NCBI RefSeq assembly: GCF_016862555.1
Contig: NZ_BONE01000072.1
Location: forward strand, 1 to 39,870
Origin: Asanoa siamensis
Lineage (GTDB): Bacteria > Actinomycetota > Actinomycetes > Mycobacteriales > Micromonosporaceae
Length of the DNA stretch: 39,870 nt
Direction: 5' to 3'
Shown: one piece after another, positions 15,427-39,870 of the stretch
How positions within the stretch are numbered: position 1 is the stretch's first letter
How the letters are laid out: each line of letters begins with the position of its first letter
Notes under the pieces: model-generated
Told to the model about the DNA's origin: nothing
What the model saw: the letters and a program-made list of their open reading frames with translations, nothing else
Database searches by the model: none
Program-made: the position numbers and the translations under genes

Positions 15427-16125
15427 TCAGGCCCGTTGCGCGGCGGGCAGGTCGTCGTCGTGGTCCAGCCACCAGGCCGTGCCCCAGCGCAGGACCTTGC
15501 CGTACAGGGTGAGGACGAGGCCCGCCTCGAAGTCGGTGGCCGGGGTGCGGACCGCGCGGGCCAGCGGATCGTCGTCGCGCCGCCAGGTGAAGCTGCCTTT
15601 GCCCGGCACGTACTCGTCGCGGTGTCGCGGCAGGCAGTCGACGAACACCCAACCCGACCCGTCGGCCGGGGCGTAGCCGAGGATCCGCTTCCCCATGACG
15701 AGGCTCGCCGGCCCGATCTCGGCGACCACCTCGCTCAGCCGCACGTCGCGGCCACCGAAACCGCGGACGGTCGCGATGAGACGCTGCCACTCGTCGGCGT
15801 CGAGCACCCGCTCGACGTCGAGGTAGCCGAGCCGGTGGAACTGCTCGGCGAAGACCGACGCGACCTCGGCCGTGCAGCTCAGGTCCTCCCCGAACATCGC
15901 GACGAACGGCCCGGCCACACCGAGCGTCCCGTACGCGCGCAGGCCCGCCAGCACGTCCTCGAACTCCGGCTCGCGCTCGTCGAGGAAGCACAGGTCCGCC
16001 ATCAGCGCCCGCGCCGCGAAGTCGAACGCCTGGCCGCTGGTCGCGTACATCTCGGGTCTGGTGAGCATCCATGGCAGGGAGTCGAGCCAGCGCTGCCGAA
16101 GCTCCGTCGCGGACCGCACCGCCAC
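15427..16125 (-). CDS. conserved protein of unknown family (has a decayed paralog in this window)
   Basis: The 232-aa soluble protein matches no family I can name. Features: an N-terminal ATELRQRWLDSLPWMLTRPEMYA stretch, a central EQFHRLGYLDVERVLDADEW, and a well-conserved block GYAPADGSGWVFVDCLPRHRDEYVPGKG near residues 150-178. Most of this block recurs in a damaged second copy at 26719-27213, so it is the most constrained part. No signal peptide or membrane segment. Start: GTG at 16125. It is convergent with the aldo/keto reductase (22-bp gap) and has no obvious partner. Confidence 0.7.
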   Translation of the reverse strand: MAVRSATELRQRWLDSLPWMLTRPEMYATSGQAFDFAARALMADLCFLDEREPEFEDVLAGLRAYGTLGVAGPFVAMFGEDLSCTAEVASVFAEQFHRLGYLDVERVLDADEWQRLIATVRGFGGRDVRLSEVVAEIGPASLVMGKRILGYAPADGSGWVFVDCLPRHRDEYVPGKGSFTWRRDDDPLARAVRTPATDFEAGLVLTLYGKVLRWGTAWWLDHDDDLPAAQRA

Positions 16126-33114: not shown

Positions 33115-33537
33115 ATGGCCGAGACGTTCCACGAGTTCGTGGTGCAACGATCCCCGGCGCTGTCCCGGCGGGCCTACCTGCTCACCGGCGACCACCAACT
33201 CGCCGAGGACCTGCTGCAGAACGCGCTGGCCAAGACCTACCGGCACTGGCGGCGGATCAGCGATCCCGAGGCGTACGTGCGGCGCGCCATGTACCACCAG
33301 CAGGTCTCCTGGTGGCGGCAACGTCGGCTCACCGAACGCCTGGAGTCGGAGCCGGTCGAGCGGGCCGGCACCGACCACTCCGACGCGACCGCCCTCCGGT
33401 TGACCGTCGCGGCCGCGTTGCGCCAGCTCACCCCGCGCCAGCGCGCCGTGGTCGTGCTGCGGTTCTACGAGGACCTGACCGAGCCACAGGTCGCCGAGGT
33501 GCTCGGCTGCTCGGTCGGCACTCCTAAGGGACGTTAG
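33115..33537 (+). pseudogene. SigE-family ECF sigma factor gene truncated by element insertion
   Basis: The frame encodes a SigE-family sigma factor: FHEFVVQRSPALSRRAYLLTGDHQLAEDLLQNALAKTYRHW (region 2), then VSWWRQRRLTERL and LRQLTPRQRAVVVLRFYEDLTEPQVAEVLGCSVGT (region 4). It ends just where the family continues VKSQ...ALAKLR, after only a few foreign residues (PKGR) and a stop. The second half of the region-4 helix-turn-helix (the DNA-recognition helix for the -35 box) is missing. The 3' part is not elsewhere in the window. ATG 33115 has GAGGGGG upstream. The truncation coincides with the start of the serine recombinase, so the gene is the integration target. Confidence 0.85.
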
Positions 33538-33540
33538 ATG
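33515..33540. mobile_element. left attachment junction (attL) of the integrated element
   Basis: The change from sigma-factor coding sequence to foreign sequence occurs after GGTCGGCAC (33515-33523 approximately), in the codons for C-S-V-G-T. The expected next codons (V-K-S) are replaced by CTCCTAAGGGACG and a stop. Serine integrases usually leave a 2-bp core within such a junction; the exact crossover base cannot be fixed without the other end. Confidence 0.65.
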
Positions 33541-33591
33541 CTAAGGTCGATGTCAATACTCAGGGTCATCGATCGCAGGGGGCCATTTCCG

Positions 33592-35130
33592 ATGGTACGG
33601 CGGGTCGCCCGGTCCGGGAACCGGGTTCGGTTCGACAGCAAGGACGCGCTTCTGGCCGGCGGTGTCGATGTGCGGGCCTTGCGGTACCAGCGGGCCAGTC
33701 AAGACAGGAAAGAGCAGGGCAAGAGCGTCGGTGATCAAGGCAAGCTGAACTTGGCCGAGGTCACCAAGCGGTCCTGGTCGGACGCGGGGTCGTTCACGGA
33801 CAACGACCGGTCGGCGAGCCGGCACGCGAAGAAGGATCGGCCGGAGTTCGAGTTGCTGATCGAGCGGATCGAAGCCGGTCGGGGTGACGTGCTGGTGATC
33901 TGGGAGATGTCCCGTCGGGAGCGTGACCTGGCGGTGTACGTGAAGATCCGGGACATGTGCACGAAGGTCGGCTTGTACTTCTGGCTCGTCGGCGGAGTCC
34001 TGTACGACCTGCGGGACAAGAACGACCGGATGATGCTCGGCTTCCAGGCGGTCCAGGCGGAGTGGATGGCGGACTCGATCCGGGACAACGTCTTGCGCGG
34101 TGTGGCGATGGCCGCGGAGGCGGGCCGTCCGCATGGGAAGGTCACCTACGGGTATCGGCGGATCTACGACCAGCGCACGAGAGCCCTGCTACGGCAGGAG
34201 CCCGACACGGAGCTCCGCACCGCGACCGCTGTTGACGGGACGGTGATTGAGTACAGCCATGCCGGGGTCGTGCGGGACAACTTCAAGCGGGTCGCGGCTG
34301 GGGTTCCGCTGATTACGATCGAGCGCGATCTGAACGCCAGGGGCATCCCGTCCCCAGAGGGAAAGACCTGGCGGCGCGGGATCATCCGTAAGCAGGTGAT
34401 GAACCCGGCCTACATCGGCAAGCGAGTCTTCCGCGGCGAGGTGATCGGGGACGGCGCGTGGCCGGCACTGCTGGACGGTGAGGGCGTCTATTGGGCGTGC
34501 GTGCAGTTGCTAAGCGACCCGTCCCGGACGACGACTCGGGCCGGCCGGGCCGTCCACCTGCTGTCCTACATCGCCGCGTGCGGGGTCTGCGGCGGTCCGC
34601 TGTCGTCCAACCACGTGAACCGGCACGGTTGGGAAGGACAGGTGTACTCGTGCCTCAAGAGGCGGTGCGCAGCGGTCAAGGCCGAATTCCTCGACGAGTA
34701 CGTCCAGCGAACCGTCGTGGCGTGGCTGTCCCTGCCAGAAACCAGCGAGATGCTCTCGGCCTTGTCCGGTGGGGACGAGCAAGCCGCTCAGGCGCGAGCT
34801 GAGGCGGTTCGGCTCCGGGTGGAGTTGGAGGAGTGGCGCAAGCTGGGCGAGCAGGGCGAAGTCTCGGCTGTAGCGTACGCACGGGCGGAGAAGGGGTTGA
34901 CCGCGCAGATCGCCGAGCACGAGCAGCGGGCACAACAGGCCGGTATGCCGCCGGTACTTCGCGGACGGATCGGCGAGCACGCCGCACAAAAATGGGCCGA
35001 CCTGGGCGATCAGGTCGCGGTAAAGCGGGAGATCATCCGGACGGTGGCAGACATAAACTTGCTACCGGCCGGCAAGGGCAACCGCCGGCCGTTTGGCGGG
35101 CACCGTCTGAGGTGGTCGTGGCGATTCTAG
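33592..35130 (+). CDS. large serine recombinase (integrase)
   Basis: The 512-aa product is a large serine integrase. The N-terminal catalytic domain has nucleophile Ser36 in RYQRASQDRKEQGKSVGDQ, and the SRRERD and GVLYDLRDKNDR blocks that hold the catalytic arginines. The recombinase domain follows (GKVTYGYRR, VFRGEVIG), then a zinc ribbon with Cys330, Cys333, Cys354 and Cys359, and a coiled coil (about 385-440). It would integrate the element by attP x attB recombination. The ATG at 33592 lies 9 bases after AGGGGG, so I prefer it to the upstream ATG 33538. No excisionase-type directionality factor is visible in the window. Confidence 0.92.
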   Translation: MVRRVARSGNRVRFDSKDALLAGGVDVRALRYQRASQDRKEQGKSVGDQGKLNLAEVTKRSWSDAGSFTDNDRSASRHAKKDRPEFELLIERIEAGRGDVLVIWEMSRRERDLAVYVKIRDMCTKVGLYFWLVGGVLYDLRDKNDRMMLGFQAVQAEWMADSIRDNVLRGVAMAAEAGRPHGKVTYGYRRIYDQRTRALLRQEPDTELRTATAVDGTVIEYSHAGVVRDNFKRVAAGVPLITIERDLNARGIPSPEGKTWRRGIIRKQVMNPAYIGKRVFRGEVIGDGAWPALLDGEGVYWACVQLLSDPSRTTTRAGRAVHLLSYIAACGVCGGPLSSNHVNRHGWEGQVYSCLKRRCAAVKAEFLDEYVQRTVVAWLSLPETSEMLSALSGGDEQAAQARAEAVRLRVELEEWRKLGEQGEVSAVAYARAEKGLTAQIAEHEQRAQQAGMPPVLRGRIGEHAAQKWADLGDQVAVKREIIRTVADINLLPAGKGNRRPFGGHRLRWSWRF

Positions 35131-35212: not shown

Positions 35213-36229
35213 CTACAAGCGGTCGACTGAACCAAGTAATGCTCTGCACTGTGCCAAAAGTTGGTCATATGTCATAACCGTGATGCCATGAAGGCGAGCA
35301 TTTAGTCCGTGCAATGCATGCAACTCACGGCGTGTCCACTTAGACGACCGTCCAGCAATGATGACGGCCCTGGGATGATACGCGACAATTTCCGGATGGT
35401 CGTCAAGTCCGCCTCGGAGCTTGTCGTGCAGAACGTCCAAATAGCGATGACATTGCCCGATTGCTTTCGTTATTTGGTGGGCCCAATAAAAACATTTGTG
35501 CTCACGGTCATAGTTCAACACCGTCGCGTCCGGCCGCTTCAGTTCGTAGACGTCTCGAAGGCCGTTTAACGCCGACTCCACAAGAATGTCTATATCGTCG
35601 GCGGCACTGACTCGCCGGACCGCGTCGCGACGAACATACACGTTTCCGAGCGCCCATGTGTGTGCCTCCAGCCAATCTTGATAAATGGTCTCTGCAACCT
35701 GGCCACTCTCGAGAAGTGACCCAAGCTGATCGGTTGCACGCCGCAATGCGCTCAATCTCACTGCGTCATCGATGGAATTGCTGATGATGTCCGCCACTTC
35801 AGGCTGTCGCATGACTGATGCCATCTGGGGCATGCTCAGAATTTTGGCTAACGCTGCGGCTGCATCTATTGAGTCGTCCCCGGCGACGTCGTCGACTCGA
35901 ATGAGTGCATATGATCCAGGCGTCCGATTCCGAATCGCGGCCGCAGCATCCACGTATTTTAGAAGCTCGTGAACCTCCGACTCGCTTAGGGAGATCTCAT
36001 TCTTTGGGGACATTGGCTTTGTCGTGTCAATACGTTCCAGGCGAAGCACTAGTTCAGCAGAGCTGGTGGAGTGTGGAACGATCCACGCTATCGCTTGAAT
36101 GAGATAGCGCTTGCTGCGCAATACCCGGGTCGGCAGATAGGTGACTATCCCGTTGCGAGCGAGTCTGCTTTCGATGCGCTCTACCTGCACCACGTCCCGG
36201 CGAGGGCCCGGACTATTCGCCTGAGTCAT
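35213..36229 (-). CDS. Shedu-type (SduA / DUF4263) anti-phage nuclease
   Basis: The 338-aa protein carries the DUF4263 (Shedu) nuclease domain in its C-terminal half: YQDWLEAHTWALG (183-195), then DDIDILVE with Asp214, VYELKRPD with Glu229 and Lys231, and AIGQCHRYLD with Gln259. This is a PD-(D/E)XK-type active site (D...E-x-K...Q), the signature of SduA, the single-gene anti-phage system. Residues 1-170 are an N-terminal domain without a motif I can name, as in many Shedu proteins, and presumably sense infection. ATG 36229 has no clear ribosome binding site; a weak TTGACC (minus strand, 36259-36264) could be a -35 element. It lies 65 bp downstream of the restriction-modification gene on the same strand. 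Codon use and GC are unlike the host genes. Confidence 0.85.
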   Translation of the reverse strand: MTQANSPGPRRDVVQVERIESRLARNGIVTYLPTRVLRSKRYLIQAIAWIVPHSTSSAELVLRLERIDTTKPMSPKNEISLSESEVHELLKYVDAAAAIRNRTPGSYALIRVDDVAGDDSIDAAAALAKILSMPQMASVMRQPEVADIISNSIDDAVRLSALRRATDQLGSLLESGQVAETIYQDWLEAHTWALGNVYVRRDAVRRVSAADDIDILVESALNGLRDVYELKRPDATVLNYDREHKCFYWAHQITKAIGQCHRYLDVLHDKLRGGLDDHPEIVAYHPRAVIIAGRSSKWTRRELHALHGLNARLHGITVMTYDQLLAQCRALLGSVDRL

Positions 36230-36294
36230 GCGACAACACTGACGCAATGAGAACCGAGGGTCAAGGGAGGACGAGTGCCAACGCGGGAAACTAG

Positions 36295-39200
36295 CTAGGC
36301 CAGCATCGCTCGAACGATGGCTTCTATCTGCGTGGCCGCCGGATGGGTCGCAAGCTCGGTGCGGATGCGGCGGCGCAAAGAGATAAAGCTCGTATTCTCG
36401 TCGAATGCAAGCCCTGAAACGATGTCGCGCTGCCTAGCTCCCAGTTCGACGAGGCGTCGGTGATCGGGGCGCGCCTTGTCGTAAAGTGGAATCGGCAGCT
36501 GCCAGATGTGCTTGTCGACGTGTCGCTCGTCCTTGCCATAAGACATCATCGGCCGGATCAGCTCTGTGAGCAACGCGCTGTTTAGGATCGCGCACAAGTA
36601 GAGACCTTCGTCGTGCGTAGAAATTGTACAGTAATATAGTCCGTGCTCCAGGATTACTCGCGGATCCTCTACAACAGCCGCAGAGACGTGCATTCCAGAG
36701 GCGCCATACGCGAGACGTAGTGGAGATGGCGGAATCTGAACCGAGAGCTTCCGCCGGTAGTCGAGCTGCTCACCGAGCGTAAGGCGTGTGCTGCGACGGT
36801 GGTTCTCCCAAACGGCTACCGCCTGCTGCCACCAGTCCGCTAATCCGGGATAATAGTCAAGGACAGAGTCGTCACTAGCAATTAGGCGTTGCCCCACGAT
36901 TGGGAGGACGACCCGACGGGCAGGAAGCAGGCGGTACGGGAGGAGACTCTCTCCAAGTAGGACGTCCCGGATAAACTCGGTTTCAACAACCCCTTCTAAC
37001 CTTTCGAGGTCCTTCCATGGTTGTTTCTCGTAGTTGCTTCGCGACGACTTGACCTTTCGACTGCCGGCGGCAAACCCGAGTGGACTATGCGGAACATCAA
37101 CAAAAAACAACACGCGAGGGAAGATAGTGGCACCGTTGTTCACACGTGGCGCGTAAGGTGATTCCTCGACGAGTGATCCGGTCGAGACCAACCCTGCGAT
37201 CTTAATCTCTATGTTCGGTTCCACAACGTCCCATGATCCCCCTGAAGCCGGTATTCGCCCGGACCAACGTTGCGTCGTCGCGGACATCTGTCGATATTGG
37301 TCTGATGACGTTCTGCGGCCAAAAATCACGCTCGCGCCACGCGGGAAGGGATGGGGACGCAACCGCCGTAGGTCCCACGTAGCAGTGAACGTCACGGCAA
37401 CAGGCTCGGCAGAATCGTCGTACCAGCCTGACCGAAAGCCGGCATAGTAGGCACGGTCGAGTACCGCGTTTGGGAGCACAAATGCAAACGACCCGCCCAT
37501 CGCCAGATACTGCTGTATGGCGCGCGCAACGAATAGGGCGGAGAGGTCCTGGTGAGTCGCAAACTTGCCCCCGTGCCAGATCCCGCGATCGCTTGACAGG
37601 TCCTTAAAAAGTTTCTGCATATCGATCGGCATGTGCCGGTAGGACAACCACGGTGGATTTCCAATAAGGACATCCACGCGATTCTCGCGTAGGGCGAGCC
37701 ATACGGGACGCGCAAGGTTCCTAATGTAGTAACTCCAGATATGATTGCGACCTTCGTCGTGAAGTCTGCACATCGCGGCGAAGGTCTCGAGAATCATCGG
37801 CTGATCTTCTTCGGCGATCGCCATCCTATGAAAAACGGCGCCCAAGGAAGGAAGCGTATTCTTGTCGCGTGGCTTCGCCGCCAGCGATGCCAAATTCGAT
37901 ACGAGTCTGTCGAAACGACTAGGATCGGAGAGTAGGTGCTCGGGAAAGCGAAGCACGTCCTCGAGAAGACTTGCGCCGTGTCCAGCACTAATGCGGAGGT
38001 GTTCCTCGGTGAAGAGGTCGAGCCGTTCTCTCCATTGAATGCTGTCGCCCAGGTAGACGGGAATATTGATGGTGTCTCTACCGGGGTCGACCAAGCGTTC
38101 CCGACCAATGGCCAGCAGATAAGTCACGCGAGCGAGAGCCACTGCAACGGGGTGAAGGTCCACTCCGATCACGTGCCGCGAGAGGCTCGCAAGGGCAGAA
38201 TCAACGGATTCTCCGCGTACGTCCGCTGCGGCTAGATACTTCCTGACTGCGTGAAACAGGAACGTACCTGAGCCGCAAGCAGGATCCAGCACTCGTTGCT
38301 GCAAAGGTTGGCTGATCGACTTGTTTACTATCTCCTCCGCGAGCCAGTCGGGCGTATAGTATTCGCCCATTCGCTTGCGTGTCTCCGTGCCGATCACTGA
38401 TTCGTAGAGGATCTTAAGTACGTCGTGCTCGACGTGCGCCCAATCGAATCGGGCCAAACGTCGAGCCAAAGACTGCACGAACTGTGCGCCCCCGGGAACC
38501 TCTATTGTCCAGTCAAAGAAGTCCTGCTCTACGACCCCAAAAATGCCCGCTTGTTCGAATCGTTGGCCGCTAATCAGGCTAGCCGGCTGCAGGTCCAGGA
38601 CGTCGATCCCAAGAACCAGATGCGCAATTATGTCCGCGCTATTCACCAGAAGTGTGTGCTCGACGAAGAGTTCGTCACTGTCGATGAACTGAGTCCCAAG
38701 CGCGCTGTGCAAGAGTTGTGCCCAAAGGCGCCGCTTGACTTGGACTGTTGGTAGGTCGACATGTTCGGCGTAAAGGTCGGCAAGCATAGCCCGATCGAGC
38801 GCGTGCGATGTGCTGGCCGCACCGAGGCGCTGGACAATTTCCGTCGGTGTTGGCAAGACGCCCTGCTGGGTCGCTAAGATGCCCTCGAGCCAATAGAACA
38901 GCGCAAGAGGATCCCCCGTACCAGGGCTGTTCTTATAGGTTGTAACGCGAGTCAGGCCTTCGCCTTGAAGCTGATAGGCATGCCACTGAACTCCGTCTGT
39001 AAGAATGCCGACGTAGTGTTGTCCGGTCTGATGACTTCGCGCGGTTACATAGCCCGCCAACTGCTTCTCGGCCTCGGCGACGACGCGGGCGCTTCCCAGG
39101 TTCTTTTTGACCTCGATGGCGGTGTATCCGGCTTCGATATCGATGCGACGGCCACCACCAGCCGGCACTTCCAGGTCGACATCGACGTGGTCGTCGGACA

Positions 39201-39453
39201 GGCCGAAGTCACCGGCTAGCAGGAGCCTTCGAATGTCGGCCTGCAGTGTGGCTTCGCTCCGCGGGCGATCGCGGCTCGCGATCTTGGCCAGAAGATCAGC
39301 CACAGGCTCGCGAAAGCCCCGTAACTGTTGGTACTGGGGGACAAATCCGGCACTATGACGCCCCGTATTGGCCATGTGACAGTATGCGCAGCCCCATCGA
39401 TGTGCCGCCATAGCCCAATCGGTGACAAATGGCAGTGCCTCAGGGTGATCCAC
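36295..39453 (-). CDS. type IIG-like restriction-modification fusion protein
   Basis: The 1052-aa product combines all activities of a type IIG system. Residues ~65-165 form an HsdR_N-like PD-(D/E)XK nuclease: RRIDIEAGYTAIEVKKNLG gives Asp105, Glu114 and Lys116, with Gln131 after it. A helical linker leads to an N6-adenine methyltransferase: GEYYTPDWLAEEI (363-375), DPACGSGTFLF (motif I, 390-400), VIGVDLHPVAVALAR, and NPPW (motif IV, 599-602). Residues ~620-1050 would contain target recognition. The N-terminus also has WGCAYCHMANTGRH, a CxxC-H element. The start is uncertain: GTG 39453 is the first in frame after a stop, yet no ribosome binding site is near. PglX-like or DISARM-like methyltransferases are less likely because of the attached nuclease. 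Its GC content is low for this genome. Confidence 0.82.
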   Translation of the reverse strand: MDHPEALPFVTDWAMAAHRWGCAYCHMANTGRHSAGFVPQYQQLRGFREPVADLLAKIASRDRPRSEATLQADIRRLLLAGDFGLSDDHVDVDLEVPAGGGRRIDIEAGYTAIEVKKNLGSARVVAEAEKQLAGYVTARSHQTGQHYVGILTDGVQWHAYQLQGEGLTRVTTYKNSPGTGDPLALFYWLEGILATQQGVLPTPTEIVQRLGAASTSHALDRAMLADLYAEHVDLPTVQVKRRLWAQLLHSALGTQFIDSDELFVEHTLLVNSADIIAHLVLGIDVLDLQPASLISGQRFEQAGIFGVVEQDFFDWTIEVPGGAQFVQSLARRLARFDWAHVEHDVLKILYESVIGTETRKRMGEYYTPDWLAEEIVNKSISQPLQQRVLDPACGSGTFLFHAVRKYLAAADVRGESVDSALASLSRHVIGVDLHPVAVALARVTYLLAIGRERLVDPGRDTINIPVYLGDSIQWRERLDLFTEEHLRISAGHGASLLEDVLRFPEHLLSDPSRFDRLVSNLASLAAKPRDKNTLPSLGAVFHRMAIAEEDQPMILETFAAMCRLHDEGRNHIWSYYIRNLARPVWLALRENRVDVLIGNPPWLSYRHMPIDMQKLFKDLSSDRGIWHGGKFATHQDLSALFVARAIQQYLAMGGSFAFVLPNAVLDRAYYAGFRSGWYDDSAEPVAVTFTATWDLRRLRPHPFPRGASVIFGRRTSSDQYRQMSATTQRWSGRIPASGGSWDVVEPNIEIKIAGLVSTGSLVEESPYAPRVNNGATIFPRVLFFVDVPHSPLGFAAGSRKVKSSRSNYEKQPWKDLERLEGVVETEFIRDVLLGESLLPYRLLPARRVVLPIVGQRLIASDDSVLDYYPGLADWWQQAVAVWENHRRSTRLTLGEQLDYRRKLSVQIPPSPLRLAYGASGMHVSAAVVEDPRVILEHGLYYCTISTHDEGLYLCAILNSALLTELIRPMMSYGKDERHVDKHIWQLPIPLYDKARPDHRRLVELGARQRDIVSGLAFDENTSFISLRRRIRTELATHPAATQIEAIVRAMLA

Positions 39454-39870
39454 AGACGATTCAGAGCGACTCGTCGACGCCGGACCAACCTAACCTGAGC
39501 CGCAGACTTACCTCCTCTTGCTGATCATGCCAACCGCAGTCTCGGGCCCACCTCGCTGCCGGGCGACTCAGGCCCCGTATTCTCGGTGCCGCCTGGATCG
39601 TTCGGCAGGCCGGCACCTCCCGTTCCGGGCGGTATCTCTCGCGCCGATGCTTGATGTCAGCCAGAAGCCCTCCCGGGGGCCGACGAGCTCTTTCCCGTAG
39701 TCGGCCATGTGCCAGGTCGCTCGCCACCATGAGCCGCGTCAGGACATTGCGGCGCAGCCCCGGCTGATCGTGGACGGTGCCGCGAGGTCCTTCTGGCCCG
39801 TTGGATGAGATGCGCCTCGGAGGTTCAAGCTGCTGGATTGTTGGTGGGGTATTCGTTCCAGTGGAGCATG
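39454..39870. other. right-edge sequence, no supported gene
   Basis: On the minus strand one frame is open from the window edge to a TGA at 39461-39463, 7 bp before the restriction gene start, so the 3' end of a gene from outside the window is possible; I do not recognise the encoded text. A strong ribosome-binding sequence AAGAGGAGG (minus strand, 39519-39511) is present, but no ATG, GTG or TTG follows it at a proper distance. No repeat, tRNA or sigma-factor 3' end is visible. Confidence 0.3.

Follow-up and report, generated by a model that had tools for sequence, protein, structure and literature searches.

Results

The interrupted sigma gene and its neighbours

The window, that is, the whole stretch of DNA analysed here, is the entire contig C72 (39,870 bases) of the Asanoa siamensis genome, which comprises 8.78 Mb in 219 contigs. 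The features of the locus, including one on a second contig of the same genome (C8), are as follows.

33115..33521, forward strand: 5' part of an interrupted SigE-family sigma factor gene, above the TIGR02983 cut-off, with 85-89% DNA identity to intact same-genus orthologues; includes the crossover dinucleotide AC
33520..33521, forward strand: core dinucleotide AC of attL, from comparison of attL, attR and intact orthologues; AC in 20 of 20 sigma left ends
33522..33537, forward strand: element-supplied tail P-K-G-R-stop, which closes the sigma frame; stop at the sixth codon from the core, as in 20 of 20 sigma left ends
33522..33551, forward strand: attP half forming the element's left arm, TCCTAAGGGA-CGTTAGATGC-..., which mirrors the C8 right arm in inverted orientation; symmetry of CGTTAGATGC with CGTAAGAAGC in several elements, by eye
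33592..35130, forward strand: large serine integrase, 512 aa, likely start ATG 33592; Pfam Resolvase (PF00239) 3.8e-20 and Recombinase (PF07508) 5.7e-10; relatives share the MVRR.. start
35213..36247, reverse strand: cargo, Shedu SduA-like protein; Pfam SduA_C 3.1e-13, PADLOC SduA 3e-106
36295..39453, reverse strand: cargo, type IIG-like restriction-methyltransferase; PADLOC REase_MTase_IIG 1.9e-75, Pfam N6_Mtase and Eco57I
39454..39870, no strand: element continuing past the end of contig C72; right end on C8 (L128:1-15867), outside the window
C8 (L128) 15482-15862, reverse strand: right-end gene of the window's element, starting 5 bp from the core

The sigma open reading frame (33115-33537) begins with ATG at 33115 and ends with TAG at 33535-33537. 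Its residues run ...LGCSVGT, then P-K-G-R and the stop (in full, ...FYEDLTEPQVAEVLGCSVGT-PKGR-stop), so that the frame does end four codons past G-C-S-V-G-T, as the earlier note had read it; compared with its orthologues, the gene departs at codon 136 and stops five codons later. The protein scored 164.9 bits against the NCBIfam model TIGR02983 (SigE family; cut-off 141.55), and matched Pfam Sigma70_r2 (2.9e-6) and Sigma70_r4_2 (3.5e-12), the latter over profile positions 4-42 of 54 only. The lost segment of region 4 is presumably the -35 recognition helix, and the truncated sigma factor would probably be inactive. Frame and family models therefore agree with the earlier claim of an integration inside the region-4 helix-turn-helix of a SigE-family sigma factor, with the end of region 4 lost. 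The host genome holds 24 TIGR02983 matches above the cut-off, the window gene counted.

Intact orthologues with 85-89% DNA identity were found in three genomes of the same genus (G004, locus L010 = L060; G001, L011 = L058; G003, L012). They have 165-167 codons and continue GTVKRHG(H/Y)DA, so these empty-site relatives are uninterrupted and not truncated. In the same-genus genomes G002 and G005 the best matches reached just 70-71%, and no sigma orthologue was found. The dN/dS of the window 5' half was 0.31 to L060 and 0.22 to L058 (two Asanoa genes) and 0.23 to L012, and among the intact genes it was 0.28 (L060-L012), 0.25 (L058-L012) and 0.07 (L060-L058). Clear decay thus appears to be absent, as would be expected of a recent insertion and just as much of a gene that remains in use after excision; a branch-wise substitution count for the 5' half held too few changes to decide, its outcome shifting with the outgroup.

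The sigma stop (33537) and the integrase (33592-35130) are separated by 54 bp. The first ATG of the integrase frame (33538; open reading frame 33538-35130) abuts the sigma stop (TAGATG), and automatic annotation may choose this longer start. Because the alignment with relatives starts at ATG 33592, the protein probably measures 512 aa; it has the Resolvase catalytic and Recombinase domains and the size (~500 aa) of a large serine integrase. The G+C content is ~71-75% upstream and 56-58% past the integrase in the window; the part of the element on C8 has 61-70% and the chromosome beyond it 71-76%.

The 3' half and the attachment sites

The window ends with contig C72, before the element does, and the 3' sigma half therefore lies outside it. 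With the DNA of L060 downstream of the break as query, the match in the A. siamensis genome was on C8 from 15868 (ACGGTGAAGCGGCACGGCCACGACGCG...). The 3' half there, ACGGTGAAGCGGCACGG... (reading T-V-K-R-H...), is in frame and is followed by an open 460-aa partner gene. The earlier note had placed the 3' part of the gene at the far end of the element, with codons starting V-K-S: the fragment with its open partner gene is present on C8, but its residues are V-K-R. Joining the 5' and 3' halves restores the full frame, so the earlier proposal that excision would reconstitute the sigma factor holds at the level of sequence, and we infer that the element still excises. There is no restoration at attL, consistent with the earlier statement that the element leaves its target gene unrestored.

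The attL reads GGC-AC-TCCTAAGG, the attR (C8:15868-15869) GACT-AC-GGTGAAG, and the attB of the relatives GGC-AC-GGTGAAG, AC being common to all three. Most right ends are close to GGCTTCTTACGCTCACTGACT-AC. In the attP arms, CGTAAGAAGC (on the reverse complement of the right arm) lies ~10 bases from the core, a spacing that CGTTAGATGC shares in the left arm, as judged by eye, with several elements deviating. Inverted arm symmetry around the core is expected of a serine-integrase attP, and here it supports AC as the core; the conserved TGACT adjoining the core is also part of attP. An attL and attR with a short common core, a rebuilt attB and open joined sigma frames in 13 of 13 cases are what a large serine recombinase would leave.

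On C72 the element covers 6.3 kb, from 33522 to the contig end, and on C8 the first 15.9 kb, the stretch between being unassembled. C72 and C8 probably carry the two ends of one element, and if so, its size would be at least 22 kb.

Element content and distribution of the integrase

In addition to the two cargo genes of the window, the element carries a PDC-S39 candidate defence protein on C8 (L128 2950-5058). The cargo varies between elements; that of G173, for example, holds a pPIWI-RE island (L170 10630-18210). We clustered the open reading frames of 16 elements, a clustering that is noisy because both strands were used, and part of the frames were scanned. The integrase and a DUF2637-like protein were present in all 16 and a Replic_Relax protein in 13; the latter is lacking in G325, G326 and the assembled part of the window's element. 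Pfam searches covered a single DUF2637 member (C8) and a pair of Replic_Relax members (G334, G299). The G299 element also has a TrwB-type coupling protein. Among the scanned frames, which cover part of each element, no FtsK/TraB translocase, no RepSA/RepAM/Prim-Pol and no virion family was seen. These contents point to an integrative, probably mobilizable, defence-gene-carrying element.

A search of 354 Micromonosporaceae genomes with the integrase gave 43 matches: 27 full-length copies (60-100% identity), lying in 25 genomes, 2 partial ones (G169 and G324, excluded from every count) and 14 at 35-44%. The five same-genus genomes gave no match. In order-level (397) and class-level (394) genomes, drawn evenly with family members included, none outside the family exceeded 43% identity at E<=1e-80. 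The top-ranked phage integrase was 34.7% identical, none of 501 matching phage records reached 60%, and a pattern scan of IMG/VR, which reaches close relatives only, found no integrase relative; the top-ranked plasmid integrase was 34.4% identical. Three of the deeper relatives (35-44%) were viewed by eye (L155, L157, L158), and all three lie outside sigma genes; for L157 and L158 the site is within or next to what we take to be a comEC-like gene.

A temperate phage was rejected on the distance of the nearest phage integrase and the absence of virion families from the scanned frames, and a plasmid home on the identity of the top-ranked plasmid integrase. A tRNA attachment site was likewise rejected, no tRNA having been found in the window.

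Insertion sites of the related integrases

We read 26 left ends and judged the copy of G310, which lies at a contig start, by its right end. The results showed that 21 of the 27 copies lie in a sigma gene: 20 of the 26 readable left ends, and G310, whose right end carries TVKSQTAKSLAKLRVVAPELAELYVLEGSAR followed by a stop, resembling the 3' half at G288. The break falls at one and the same codon of region 4 in all 20 sigma left ends (the T of G-T-V-K, core AC), and all 20 gain from the element a stop at the sixth codon (TPKGR, TVKDR, TVKNR, THIRR, TVMGP or TVLGP, then stop). Family models support every one of these left halves. For eight of them TIGR02983 is the best NCBIfam model; these are the window gene and seven more, and of the seven, all fragments, G288 alone is above the cut-off. 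The other 12 are supported by Pfam, matching Sigma70_r2 and Sigma70_r4_2, the match to the latter stopping at position 40 or 41 of the 54 in the profile.

Both ends were present in the fetched DNA for 16 copies (13 sigma, 3 non-sigma), and the 15 unsplit elements measure 17.3 to 40.2 kb; ten left ends had no right end within the ~5 to 60 kb of fetched DNA, with end-finding patterns that had been tuned on the first examples. The joined flanks gave an open sigma frame in all 13 two-ended sigma insertions, ending, for example, in TVKSQTSRALVRLR. In 12 further sigma insertions both ends lie on one contig, with the same junction as in the window. No excised form was seen in the genome collection, which holds one genome per species.

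Six copies lie outside sigma genes as judged by eye (G297, G353, G206, G259, G312 and G067b). The G297 insertion is in a DUF5753 gene, and joining the flanks of G297, G206 and G067b gives a long open frame across the junction; G353, as aligned here, is without the AC core.

Diversity of the targets

The 20 interrupted sigma genes form 17 clusters at 70% protein identity, 16 at 60% and 8 at 50%, the last by single linkage. Integrases that are 94-96% identical reach sigma genes down to 36% identity: those of G194 and G200 are 95.8% identical with sigma genes 36% identical, and those of G200b and G288 are 96.0% identical with sigma genes 41% identical. G200 holds two copies, in two sigma genes that are 44.5% identical. 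Orthologous targets (91%) were found for G235/G288 (integrases 94.6%) and G325/G326 (integrases 98.8%). Eleven integrases are linked at 90% identity or more (G167, G194, G200, G200b, G206, G235, G259, G288, G297, G300 and G312); seven of these are in sigma genes (6 genes at 60%, 3 clusters by single linkage at 50%) and four are not. A multi-targeting count of the Durrant type for these 11 exceeds three target clusters only if the unclustered non-sigma sites are counted.

From the 13 reconstructed sigma attB sites we derived the consensus CGGCTGCTCGGTCGGC-AC-GGTGAAGAGCCAGACC. In leave-one-out scoring these sites reached 18.6-50.5, and the maximum over the 4,684 AC positions of the window was 8.8. 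The non-sigma attB sites scored -9.0 (G297), -16.4 (G206) and -22.1 (G067b), at the 99.6th, 97.7th and 94.1st percentile. On this gap, the sigma sites look like real targets and the others like weak secondary sites, and the insertion specificity is not absolute, since 6 of 27 copies lie elsewhere and the three two-ended ones among them have weak attB scores. In the host's own genome the motif with up to 3 mismatches had 210 matches, against 33 in a reversed control, and is at that setting too loose for counting usable sites.

The right-end gene and its Shine-Dalgarno motif

Seven elements (G000, the window's own; G299, G325, G326, G074, G156 and G067b) have at the right end an open reading frame of 80 codons or more whose start lies 5 bp from the core. 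On C8 this frame encodes a 126-aa protein and is followed in an operon by DUF2637 and a helix-turn-helix protein. The circular attP puts GGGAG or AGGAG six bases before the start codon in all seven elements with the gene. At the attR of the six sigma insertions among them, host DNA takes the place of the Shine-Dalgarno motif, which is absent, and the non-sigma G067b keeps a weak GAGAG. The nine other two-ended elements have neither a frame starting 5 bp from the core nor such a motif; in G194 and G167 a right-end frame starts 23 and 28 bp in. The seven elements with the gene fall in part of the integrase tree, pointing to one or a few events. The arrangement suggests that integration may turn down the right-end operon.

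The joined regions of G288 and G200 (31826 and 34141; in L179 and L185) contain a second right-arm-like sequence ~5-6 kb inside the right end, which is possibly a trace of tandem elements.

Discussion

It is highly probable, in our judgement, that for this integrase lineage the DNA conserved among paralogous sigma genes serves as a menu of attachment sites, and that the disruption is a reversible by-product. The window locus would be the attL of a defence-carrying integrative element, whose large serine integrase would recognise, in SigE-family sigma genes, the DNA coding for the last part of region 4 (the -35 recognition helix-turn-helix); this integrase presumably acts on the sigma sites described here. 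As the host genome holds 24 SigE-family genes, the conserved stretch of the family could present a range of attB sites. By integrating at the core AC, the element would split the sigma gene, the 5' half gaining an element-encoded stop and the 3' half with its partner gene being left at the far end of the element, and attL recombining with attR would return the intact sigma frame. What can be read directly in the DNA is the split, both att halves, the reuse of one codon in many sigma genes and the open joined frames.

A regulatory switch of the skin/sigK kind, in which defined conditions would trigger excision of the element and so activate the sigma factor, would account for the frame restored on joining in 13 of 13 two-ended sigma insertions, and it would fit the integrase lying on the sigma strand 70 bp past the core, where it could be read from the sigma promoter. 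The lack of clear decay by dN/dS in the window 5' half also favours it, but normal values fit a recent insertion as well, the gene is short, and the L060-L058 value is much lower. No sigma gene is the fixed partner across hosts, as the number of target clusters shows; the integrase is missing from the five same-genus genomes and is present at 60% identity or more in only 25 of 354 family genomes, and six insertions are elsewhere than in sigma genes. Because the relatives use many sigma genes, the pattern looks like an attachment-site strategy, and we regard a dedicated single-gene switch as unlikely. A broader regulatory reading, rather unlikely as well, is that the lineage silences SigE-type sigma factors reversibly and across the family: the integrase would read the recognition-helix codons, each integration would disable one of tens of stress regulators, and the integration state would be sensed at both junctions, at attL by the integrase under the sigma promoter and at attP by the right-end operon, which would gain its Shine-Dalgarno motif only in the circle. 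If this were true, host stress would control excision, excision would restore a stress regulator, and the regulator under element control would differ by lineage.

The in-frame stop at the sixth codon in 20 of 20 left ends, which leaves region 2 and most of region 4, could mean that the disruption itself is selected for, a disabled or truncated dominant-negative stress sigma factor benefiting the element or the host. We consider this very unlikely: the targets differ widely, and a fixed frame at the core with a conserved left arm yields the stop, so that selection on the protein is not needed. That the locus arose by chance or artefact, as an assembly chimera or an old pseudogene adjoining an integrase, might be argued from C72 ending inside the element and the two sigma halves lying on different contigs; with the same junction found, both ends on one contig, in the 12 further sigma insertions, it is scarcely credible. 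We therefore retain the menu of attachment sites, under which target availability, rather than sigma-factor control, would be the object of selection.

The element resembles those of the phiC31, phiBT1 and phiJoe/SCO2603 type, which likewise have a serine recombinase by attP, a two-base core in an imperfect inverted repeat, an attB in a coding gene and cargo varying by host. For phiJoe, an actinobacterial serine integrase element, one site near the end of an SCO2606-like gene is described (PMC5311408), whereas the present lineage uses many sigma genes of one family. Another parallel is given by the multi-targeting large serine recombinases of Durrant et al. 2022, in which, according to the main text, related integrases lie in several target gene clusters (PMC10083194), as closely related integrases do here; their example has a relaxed A/T-rich motif around TT, whereas here we found mostly one gene family and a long GC-rich coding motif around AC. 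That main text does not mention sigma genes as targets. In the open-access literature we found no report of a serine integrase with SigE/ECF sigma genes as attB, and supplementary tables may hold single cases.

The skin element offers a comparison for a split sigma gene. In the account of sigK in B. subtilis and C. difficile cited here, the sigma gene is split and excision is needed for sigma activity (PMC5025042); the likeness lies in an interrupted sigma gene whose frame precise excision restores, as far as the sequences of our elements tell. Skin concerns one sporulation sigma gene at a set timing, and the present lineage many SigE-family genes. Insertions in tRNA genes usually leave the gene intact, whereas here the protein gene would stay split until excision. 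Tyrosine-recombinase AICEs use conserved multi-copy tRNA genes as attB (PMC3218068). The present elements share with them a conserved multi-copy gene class as attB. In mycobacteriophage integration-dependent immunity the attP lies within the repressor gene, whereas in seven elements here only the Shine-Dalgarno motif of the right-end gene is split off. In this immunity, gene expression depends on integration through the location of attP (PMC4557955).

The sigma orthologue of Micromonospora marina (L048, 6001-8500) has 146 aa, with the tail DTPKRHPRPR, and stops close to the codon of the break; the stretch read has no integrase, and the partner gene is cut. This truncated gene is perhaps an old scar. 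L116, the second short frame among 79 loci, was rejected as an interruption, as it keeps GTVK.

As a warning for annotation, truncated 'SigE-family' genes may be attL scars, and an integrase with a long GC-rich target is a possible tool for Micromonosporaceae. The finding would represent a strategy by which mobile elements attach to the conserved core of a large family of regulators instead of to a single gene. The host would thereby offer many sites, and each integration would be a reversible knock-out of a different sigma factor. This makes it testable how one serine integrase can be both specific and multi-target, and whether mobile elements shape the sigma-factor repertoire of actinomycetes.
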